Assembly: GCA_020435995.1 (NCBI GenBank) | Contig: JAGQYO010000002.1 | Span: 1-62,872, forward strand | DNA from: Flavobacteriales bacterium | GTDB taxonomy: Bacteria > Bacteroidota > Bacteroidia > Flavobacteriales_G > Salibacteraceae | DNA: 62,872 nucleotides | Direction: 5' to 3' | Program-made: the position numbers and the translations under genes | The notes under the pieces: model-generated | What the model was told of the DNA's origin: nothing | What the model saw: only the letters and a program-made list of their open reading frames with translations | Database searches by the model: none | In this document: positions 19,103 to 49,845 of the stretch, piece after piece | Numbering within the stretch: position 1 is the first letter of the stretch | Layout: each line of letters begins with the position of its first letter

Positions 19103-19132
19103 TTGCTTGCAAGCAAGTGGCGTTTACATTTG
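19103..19132 (+). promoter_or_regulatory. Promoter of the sdhCAB operon
   Basis: TTG at 19103-19105 [read T-T-G], a 19-base spacer and TAcaTTTG at 19125-19132 match the Bacteroidota consensus exactly, 28 bases upstream of the sdhC ATG. The perfect 14-bp palindrome TTGCTTGCAAGCAA (19103-19116) begins at the -33 element and extends into the spacer, so it could be an operator. Confidence 0.8.
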
Positions 19133-47800: not shown

Positions 47801-49147
47801 ATGAGAATTTGGTGCGTAGAAGATGATCCAGTTTATTCTAAATTTATCGAATATGGGTTAAAGTTAAATCCCAATTATGAGGTATATATGTTTAGTTCTG
47901 GAACTGATATGCTAAAACAACTTCCTGGAAGCGTTGATGTTATTACGTTGGACTATCGCCTGCCAGATTTGAAATGTGAAAAGCTGATTAAGGAGATTAA
48001 GACCAAGCTGCCAGACCTGCCCATTATAGTAATATCAGCACAGGAAGATATTGCAACAGCCGTAGAGTTGCTCAAAGTGGGTGTTTATGACTATATAGTG
48101 AAAAATGAGGAGACCAAAGATCGCCTGTTAAACACGATAAAACATCTAGGTGAAAACATTAAGCTCAAGGAGGAGTTGAGATCCTTGCGACGAGAAATCA
48201 CCAAGCGATATGATTTTTCGAATAGTATAAAAGGTAATAGCAAAGCCATGCAGGATGTATTCTCCTTACTAGAAAAGGCTGCGGGAAGTAACATTACGGT
48301 TTCAATTTCTGGAGAAACAGGCACAGGCAAAGAACTAGTTGCCAAGGCAATTCACTTTAATTCGAATCGAAATTCAGGGCCGTTTGTGGCGGTAAATATG
48401 GCTGCTATTCCTAGTTCTTTGGTCGAAAGCGAGCTTTTCGGGCACGAAAGAGGAGCATTTACAGGTGCTGATCAAAAGAGAATTGGCAAGTTTGAGGAGG
48501 CCAATGGTGGGACCTTGTTTTTGGATGAAATTGCCGAATTAAACCTTAATCTTCAAGCAAAAATTTTAAGGGTTTTACAGGAGAAGGAAATTAACAGAAT
48601 CGGCAGTAACAAAATTATAAAGGTCAATTCTAGAGTGATTATAGCTACACACAAGAATTTAAACGAAGAAGTGCGAAATGGCACTTTTAGAGAGGATCTT
48701 TATTATCGAGTGCTGGGCTTGCCTATTCACCTACCTCCCTTAAGAAAAAGGGGTTCTGATATCATTGAGCTCGCCAAGTATTTCATTGATCAGTTTTGTG
48801 AAGAAAACGGATTGCCCAAGAAAGGCATAGAAGCCGCCGCAAATCCAAAATTACTGGAGTATTCGTGGATGGGAAACGTAAGAGAATTAAAGGCCGTTAC
48901 AGAATTGGCCTGTGTTATGAGTTCAGGTGCAAACATTGCCGCTGATGATATCATATTTAGCCCTACCTCACAATCATTGAATTTATTTGAAGAGGAAATG
49001 TCACTAAAAGAGTACACTAACCAAATTGTAAAACACTATGTGAAAAAAAACAATAACAACGTGGTGGAGGCAGCCAAAGTTCTTGGAGTAGGAAAAAGCA
49101 CAATTTATAGACTTATTAAGTCGGGAGAAATAAAAATGGAGAATTGA
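47801..49147 (+). CDS. Sigma-54-dependent response regulator (NtrC family)
   Basis: A 448-residue enhancer-binding protein with three domains. A receiver (1-120) has phosphoacceptor Asp51 in ITLDYRLPD and acidic pocket EDD at 7-9. A sigma-54-interacting AAA+ ATPase (about 140-370) has Walker A GETGTGKE, the GAFTGA loop that contacts sigma-54, and LFLDEI as Walker B. The C-terminus is a Fis-type helix-turn-helix (VVEAAKVLGVGKSTIYRLIK). An Hpt protein gene starts one base after the stop. No kinase gene is adjacent. Targets cannot be told. Confidence 0.95.
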   Translation: MRIWCVEDDPVYSKFIEYGLKLNPNYEVYMFSSGTDMLKQLPGSVDVITLDYRLPDLKCEKLIKEIKTKLPDLPIIVISAQEDIATAVELLKVGVYDYIVKNEETKDRLLNTIKHLGENIKLKEELRSLRREITKRYDFSNSIKGNSKAMQDVFSLLEKAAGSNITVSISGETGTGKELVAKAIHFNSNRNSGPFVAVNMAAIPSSLVESELFGHERGAFTGADQKRIGKFEEANGGTLFLDEIAELNLNLQAKILRVLQEKEINRIGSNKIIKVNSRVIIATHKNLNEEVRNGTFREDLYYRVLGLPIHLPPLRKRGSDIIELAKYFIDQFCEENGLPKKGIEAAANPKLLEYSWMGNVRELKAVTELACVMSSGANIAADDIIFSPTSQSLNLFEEEMSLKEYTNQIVKHYVKKNNNNVVEAAKVLGVGKSTIYRLIKSGEIKMEN

Positions 49148-49148
49148 T

Positions 49149-49487
49149 ATGAAAAAATCATATAGTCTGGATGGTTTAATAGAAATGTGTGGCGATGATC
49201 AAGCATTTATAGAAGAAATGCAGAAGGTGTTCGTTGAAAACAACGAAAAATACCTTGATGCCATGGTAGATGCTTGCAACAAGCAAGATTGGCCTGAAGT
49301 AAAAAGCAATGCTCATAAAATTAAACCCTCAATTTTACTCATGAGGATTAACTCATTGAAAGATATTATTTTAGATTTAAATGAATTTGCTGGGAAGGAA
49401 ATTAATTTGGACAGAATACCTTCGATGGTAGATACCGTAAAGGAAGGGCTTAATGTTGTGTTTAAAGAAATGAAAAAAAATAGTTAA
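49149..49487 (+). CDS. Histidine phosphotransfer (Hpt) domain protein
   Basis: A 112-residue single-domain Hpt protein. The phosphorylatable His56 is in SNAHKIKPS, matching the AHxLKxx pattern of Hpt domains, and the rest is predicted as a helical bundle. It begins one base after the sigma-54 regulator stop codon and is surely co-transcribed. It most likely relays phosphate between an unlinked hybrid kinase and the neighbouring receiver domain; this is inferred from the arrangement. Confidence 0.88.
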   Translation: MKKSYSLDGLIEMCGDDQAFIEEMQKVFVENNEKYLDAMVDACNKQDWPEVKSNAHKIKPSILLMRINSLKDIILDLNEFAGKEINLDRIPSMVDTVKEGLNVVFKEMKKNS

Positions 49488-49507
49488 AAATTACCCCCCA
49501 GTGGTGT

Positions 49508-49537
49508 TGTTATGACAAGAATTTGACTTACATTTGC
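49508..49537 (+). promoter_or_regulatory. Consensus promoter of the structured RNA candidate
   Basis: TTG (49508-49510), exactly 19 bases, then TAcaTTTG (49530-49537) followed by C: a full match to the Bacteroidota vegetative promoter, 20 bases after the Hpt stop and pointing into a non-coding region. Confidence 0.75.
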
Positions 49538-49599
49538 GCCGTTGTTCTTTGAACGGGTTATGAAGCCCAAAAAAAATAGATGTAAGCCGTAGTTTACGA

Positions 49600-49722
49600 A
49601 GATTGGTTGGTTGGGACCTCCTCCTTGGCACACCCTATTGTCGGGAGGGCTCAAGGTCCTACTAAAATGAAATTGTAACTGCGTTTAGATATTTAAGATT
49701 GGTTGGTTGGGACCTCCTCCTG
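49600..49722 (+). repeat. 27-nt perfect direct repeat, two copies 96 bases apart
   Basis: The copies at 49600-49626 and 49696-49722 are identical over 27 bases. The sequence after each copy differs but keeps the ability to fold back on the repeat's GGGACCT end. Confidence 0.9.
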
Positions 49723-49784
49723 CATAGGGTTTGTGCTTGCACAAGCAGGAGGAACCTCAGGTCCCAAATGCACTAATCGCGACA

Positions 49785-49829
49785 TTAAAAAAGCCCAATG
49801 GAGTTTGTTTCCATTGGGCTTTTTTTTTG
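49785..49829. terminator. Bidirectional intrinsic terminator
   Basis: AAAGCCCAATGGA (49791-49803) pairs perfectly with TCCATTGGGCTTT (49811-49823) across GTTTGTT. There is a T run on the plus side (to 49828) and an A run on the left side that serves as a T run for the minus strand. It can end both the RNA candidate and the convergent T9SS gene. Confidence 0.92.
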
Positions 49830-49845
49830 CCTGTATTTTTGTTTT

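Follow-up and report, generated by a model that had tools for sequence, protein, structure and literature searches.

A new two-arm structured RNA, narrowly distributed and encoded beside an Hpt gene in one family of Bacteroidota

What is encoded in the gene-free stretch that follows a sigma-54-dependent regulator and an Hpt gene in this Flavobacteriales genome? In the window, by which we mean the whole 62,872-nucleotide stretch of DNA that was analysed, comparison across six genomes shows positions 49541-49828 to be a conserved, free-standing gene for a structured non-coding RNA, under strong purifying selection within one clade; taking the ends as inferred, its predicted transcript would measure ~288 nt in the window, and about 270-290 nt overall. 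From 5' to 3' its parts are a promoter, an rRNA-like boxA, a small 5' hairpin, arm 1 enclosed by a stem (P1), arm 2 and a terminator (Table 1). An earlier note on this DNA had proposed a tandem-domain non-coding RNA, and this proposal is borne out by covariation in six genomes, a promoter and terminator of its own, a variable spacing of the repeat copies and the lack of an Rfam match. The author's remark that no known RNA family has such features likewise agrees with cmscan, which returned no match in the window against Rfam 15 at the gathering cut-off and, at E<=10, sub-threshold matches only, mostly over the terminator. We found no description of such an RNA in the literature, and to our knowledge few regulatory RNAs of Bacteroidota have been described outside Bacteroides. 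The RNA thus represents a new, narrowly distributed family of the general kind of structured sRNAs, with an unusual two-arm design, and is distinguished further by clear covariation, two invariant 21-mers, an apparent control by boxA as in rRNA operons and a constant position next to the Hpt gene.

Table 1. Features of the RNA gene and its upstream neighbours (positions in the window)
Feature	Position	Strand	Remarks
Sigma-54-dependent response regulator (receiver, AAA+ with GAFTGA, HTH)	47801..49147	+	Pfam PF00072, PF00158, PF25601, PF12728
Hpt phosphotransfer protein	49149..49487	+	PF01627; invariant AHKIKPS with His56
Putative promoter TTG-N19-TACATTTG, sigma-ABfr type	49507..49536	+	-7 box 49529-49536 conserved in 6/6, -33 box not
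Predicted transcription start	49541..49541	+	last G of -7 box at -5, published spacing (PMC6847099)
boxA-like GTTCTTTGA, at about +4	49544..49552	+	identical to boxA candidates of relatives' rRNA operons
Small 5' hairpin after boxA	49555..49568	+	comparable hairpin in L002 and L006, none seen in genus g10
P1 stem, 5' strand	49588..49594	+	pairs with 49677-49683; two-sided changes in 3/7 pairs
21-mer GATTGGTTGGTTGGGACCTCC, copy 1	49601..49621	+	invariant
Arm 1 hairpin	49612..49661	+	3' bulge GCTCA 49649-49653; distal stem with 5 two-sided pairs; proximal 8 bp invariant
Arm 1 loop ACCCTAT, proposed kissing strand	49632..49638	+	7 bp with 49724-49730, kept in 6/6
P1 stem, 3' strand	49677..49683	+	pairs with 49588-49594
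21-mer GATTGGTTGGTTGGGACCTCC, copy 2	49697..49717	+	invariant
Arm 2 hairpin	49708..49766	+	3' bulge 49753-49758; inner TTGTG-CTTG-CACAA hairpin; 4 two-sided pairs
Arm 2 5' bulge ATAGGGT, proposed partner of arm 1 loop	49724..49730	+	kept in 6/6
Intrinsic terminator	49787..49828	+	palindrome and T run in the sequence

How widely is this gene distributed? A DNA search of 100 related genomes turned up five further carriers within the family, with 80-84% identity, giving six carriers of both arms from four genera of one Bacteroidota family, all at the same syntenic site. An exact 17-mer scan over the contigs of 84,980 species yielded four Flavobacteriales or Crocinitomicaceae MAGs, whose contigs are those of four of the relatives from the DNA search, and two single chance hits. 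A covariance model built from the six carrier sequences (R1) matched only these carriers among 35 genomes of the family, 42 of the order and 395 of the class, the class search being a weak one with few candidates scored per genome. Allowing up to 3 mismatches, we find exactly two copies of the 21-mer GATTGGTTGGTTGGGACCTCC per carrier genome, with no further copy elsewhere in it, and none in three tested non-carriers; the family is thus narrow and single-copy. One genome of the same genus as three carriers (G009) lacks the RNA and the Hpt gene; it is uninformative on loss because the flanking gliding and ABC genes are absent from it as well.

The repeat had been described as a 27-nt sequence occurring twice without change, and so it does (49599-49625 and 49695-49721, 96 nt apart), with the conserved core amounting to the 21-mer GATTGGTTGGTTGGGACCTCC that starts both arms; the letters that extend it to 27 vary in the relatives. 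Over the six genomes, a single one of the 252 positions in the 21-mers has changed. The spacing of the copies (96, 92, 90, 90, 91 and 90 nt) varies, which rules out a shared reading frame, and no ORF is common to the six; a small protein at the locus was considered and rejected on these grounds. Each arm consists of a single-stranded GAUUGGUUGGU, an invariant 8-bp proximal stem, a 3' bulge and a variable distal stem whose changes are compensated. The outer GGGACCT is, as first proposed, restored by differing partners, namely AGGTCCT in arm 1, through one G-U pair that is invariant in the six genomes, and AGGTCCC in arm 2.

Covariation among relatives, on which the earlier note had staked the two stems, is plainly present. 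Over 53 pairs in a model-fitted alignment of the six sequences, the fit of which leans towards the model, 99.7% of 316 base-pair cells are kept as standard pairs, and 12 pairs (23 cells) show two-sided changes, against 1-3 pairs in slid-partner controls. A plain MAFFT alignment leaves 98.1% paired and 10 pairs with two-sided changes, RNAalifold predicts the same two arms, and the fold of 49500-49830 is far more stable than those of shuffles (z = -7.3). This evidence for the fold is carried by P1 and the distal stems, which vary freely; the proximal stems, without a change in six genomes, and the single strands, including the UUGGUUGG run in both copies, are fixed in sequence. Because the 21-mers and proximal stems are fixed while P1 and the distal stems are free, we infer recognition of sequence and not of shape alone, with something reading the invariant 21-mer and proximal stem. 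A strand-swapped switch fold was also entertained and rejected: it has near-equal energy in the window and in two relatives (L019, L023), but in L020-L022 (genus g10) it loses to the two-arm fold by 6-18 kcal/mol, and is thus not conserved. Owing to the parallel evolution of the two copies, some of the covariation fits the swapped fold as well.

To the features described by the earlier note we add a pairing that it missed: ACCCUAU in the loop of arm 1 and AUAGGGU in the bulge of arm 2 are perfectly complementary over 7 bp in the window. In the relatives two sites of this helix have changed, each from A to G and each time with a G-U pair kept, and when the unpaired letters are shuffled, 7 bp arise in 0.6-0.9% of trials. 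These observations support a kissing contact between the arm 1 loop and the arm 2 bulge, short of proof because no pair changes on both sides; such a contact would make the two arms one compact unit.

The signals for expression differ in how they are supported. Of the full-consensus promoter read by the earlier note, TTG-N19-TACATTTG is present and its -7 box, TA(C/A)ATTTG, lies at the same place in all six genomes; the match by itself is not above chance (2 observed vs 1.8 expected in the window), so the case for a promoter must rest on conservation. The sigma-ABfr consensus and the spacing from -7 box to start used here are the published ones (PMC6847099). A second perfect match in the window, at 19103-19132, contains a CTTGCAAG palindrome. 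The -7 box is followed at a nearly fixed distance in 6/6 genomes by GTTCTTTGA or GTTCTTTAA, the copy in L003 being degenerate (GTCCTTAATGA). The rRNA operons of two relatives (G011 and G022) have GTTCTTTGA ahead of 16S and again in the spacer downstream of it; we name the element boxA for its likeness to these leaders and for what boxA is known to do in rRNA antitermination (PMC4807359), and this identity is supported. Genome-wide, the pattern TTTG-N-GTTCTTTRA is not above its reversed-pattern control, so the boxA assignment relies on positional conservation. Leaders of rRNA operons in the same family (L090, L091) resemble the RNA gene in their TACATTTG-type promoter and GTTCTTTGA boxA, and differ from it in that no rRNA lies 3' of its promoter, the boxA standing at the start of a short RNA. 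Upstream of 16S (L091/L094, L090/L093) we also observed promoters in tandem, with a short CCCG...CGGG hairpin and GTTCTTAA/GTTCTA after each one; these units resemble a repeated start-site module. At the 3' end, the perfect-palindrome terminator reported before does close the stretch, as a 16-nt palindrome (49787-49802/49810-49825) with a T run; the terminator probably serves both the RNA and the convergent gene for a T9SS-sorted protein. An automated terminator scan missed it, apparently since the A/T run lengthens the stem.

The carriers share, as far as their contigs reach, the order riboflavin synthase - T9SS-sorted 911-aa protein - regulator (where present) - Hpt - RNA - T9SS-sorted protein - ABC transporter - RbfA. 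An Hpt orthologue lies directly upstream of the RNA in 6/6 genomes, and the six carriers are the only genomes with a close Hpt orthologue (E about 1e-25 or better). In other, related genera the T9SS-ABC pair is present, with Hpt, regulator and RNA all absent from this site. As the co-occurrence is confined to a single clade, the Hpt-RNA linkage amounts to one evolutionary event, and it could be plain synteny. The regulator is found at the locus in four of the six genomes: in L020 (G025:C15:4500-23500) and L021 (G022:C3:634800-653800) it is cleanly gone between Hpt and the gliding genes, with ~350-400 bp from Hpt to the next gene, and Hpt and RNA remain. The latter two thus persist without it. 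Since, moreover, no sigma-54 promoter (TGGCAC-N5-TTGCW type with both GG and GC) was found upstream of the RNA in the six genomes, control of the RNA by the regulator is not supported. Accordingly, the tie to a phosphorelay suggested by the earlier note stands for the Hpt protein, with the weight of one event, and is weakened for the regulator.

What, then, might the RNA do? We favour, with a probability of about 0.42, a trans-acting sRNA that binds a protein at the duplicated UUGGUUGGUUGGGACCUCC element, serving the pathway to which the adjacent Hpt protein belongs and with rRNA-like synthesis. This element, in which unpaired letters run into an invariant stem, is identical in both arms and would offer two copies of one candidate sequence-specific protein site, through which an abundant sRNA could act in trans by sequestering or scaffolding its protein. 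Between titration of a protein and of an mRNA, protein binding seems to fit the conservation pattern best. The boxA and housekeeping promoter would make synthesis rRNA-like and growth-linked. Kept as it is beside the Hpt gene, the RNA most likely belongs to the Hpt pathway, and might act there in the general manner of the Rsm/Csr-type titrating RNAs coupled to phosphorelays. In Gammaproteobacteria, RsmY/RsmZ and CsrB carry repeated identical protein-site motifs in hairpins and are linked to phosphorelays. The RNA is like them in its repeated identical, protein-site-like motifs in hairpins and unlike them in lacking a GGA-loop array (no GGA in either terminal loop) and a match in Rfam, in its motif, UUGGUUGGUUGGGACCUCC, and in having two arms only. 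If it does bind a protein, the invariant 21-mer is a ready-made bait for a new RNA-binding regulator.

The chief rival, which we hold to be unlikely, is a base-pairing sRNA with a Qrr-like role, whose exposed GAUUGGUUGGUU runs (present twice) or un-kissed loop would pair with mRNAs of the pathway. The UUGGUUGG run, single-stranded and invariant in both copies, could equally be an mRNA seed; the order response regulator-Hpt-sRNA resembles that of Vibrio, where luxO-luxU has qrr1 next to luxO (PMC8043402); and Bacteroides is known to have sRNAs with seed regions and sigma-ABfr promoters (PMC11697453). However, the single strand is no more invariant than the proximal stem, and the 80 sites of the 10-mer complement AACCAACCAA in two genomes (G000 and G011) include one orthologous pair, antisense to a coding gene, and no orthologous sense site near start codons. 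Pairing through the UUGGUUGG run thus finds no support, although the scan is a weak argument against base pairing in general because it concerned one possible seed in two genomes. Two loci of G000 (L229, G000:C174:13816; L215, G000:C140:28500) are rich in AACCAACCAA/CCAACCAAAC repeats, with no orthologous site in G011. Like the Qrr RNAs of Vibrio (LuxU-LuxO), the RNA has a free-standing gene with a terminator, near the gene for a sigma-54 regulator served by an Hpt protein, with Hpt present in 6/6 genomes and the regulator in 4/6. Unlike them, it has no sigma-54 promoter, is found without the regulator in two genomes, takes a proposed two-arm kissing fold, belongs to another phylum and scores 17.2 bits against the Qrr model (RF00378; gathering cut-off 50, E 1.2). 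With FopS and GibS, Bacteroides sRNAs with sigma-ABfr promoters, it shares promoter type and phylum and nothing else; FopS RNAs are multicopy, with a 5' part that is single-stranded and a single terminator hairpin (PMC11697453), whereas the RNA is single-copy with two arms.

Improbable, taken as a whole, is the more ambitious conception of a new RNA class that is boxA-controlled, has twin protein platforms locked by the kissing contact and is the partner or effector of an Hpt phosphorelay without sigma-54 control; were it true, phosphotransfer signalling would have an RNA partner of a type other than those of Vibrio and Rsm. We are more doubtful still of an RNA of the rRNA machinery, in which the boxA would bind NusB-S10 and the RNA would be a decoy or growth-rate reporter with the arms as a stabilising body. 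The boxA (GTTCTTTGA or close) at +4 in 6/6 genomes matches that of rrn, the other promoter-boxA matches that we looked at belong to rrn or to seemingly coding sequence, and SSU rRNA was the sole cmscan result over 20 such loci; yet the degenerate L003 boxA and the genome-wide control speak against this reading, which also leaves the invariant 21-mers unexplained. Very doubtful, too, is a structured 3'-UTR or termination/stability element of the regulator-Hpt mRNA: the RNA is on the same strand, always directly 3' of Hpt, with no terminator-like repeat seen between the two, but a -7 box and boxA of its own, conserved in 6/6, intervene, and it is far more elaborate than a stabiliser needs to be.

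We give little credence to the anti-Shine-Dalgarno resemblance as a function, that is, to a mimic that would bind SD-like mRNAs or ribosomal partners of the 16S 3' end. The likeness drawn by the earlier note exists, in that ACCUCC of both copies resembles the 16S end of the relatives, GGAAUACCUCCUUU; but every ACCUCC lies within a stem kept in 6/6 genomes, and the letters that follow it vary by compensated changes. The reading fails because the sequence is paired throughout and the mRNAs of Bacteroidota are without Shine-Dalgarno sequences (PMC6847099). A repeat or end of a mobile element, suggested by the direct repeat adjoining a terminator and named by the earlier note as a possible refutation, has next to no chance, as exactly two repeat copies per genome at one syntenic locus refute it, and viral, phage and plasmid collections gave no matches.

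Finally, in two genomes of genus g2 (L118 and L119) a short conserved stretch, CTTTAAAATGGGTGAATATGAAAAATGGGG...CCCCATTTTTTT, lies just downstream of the T9SS-ABC pair and looks like a small terminator-ended element.
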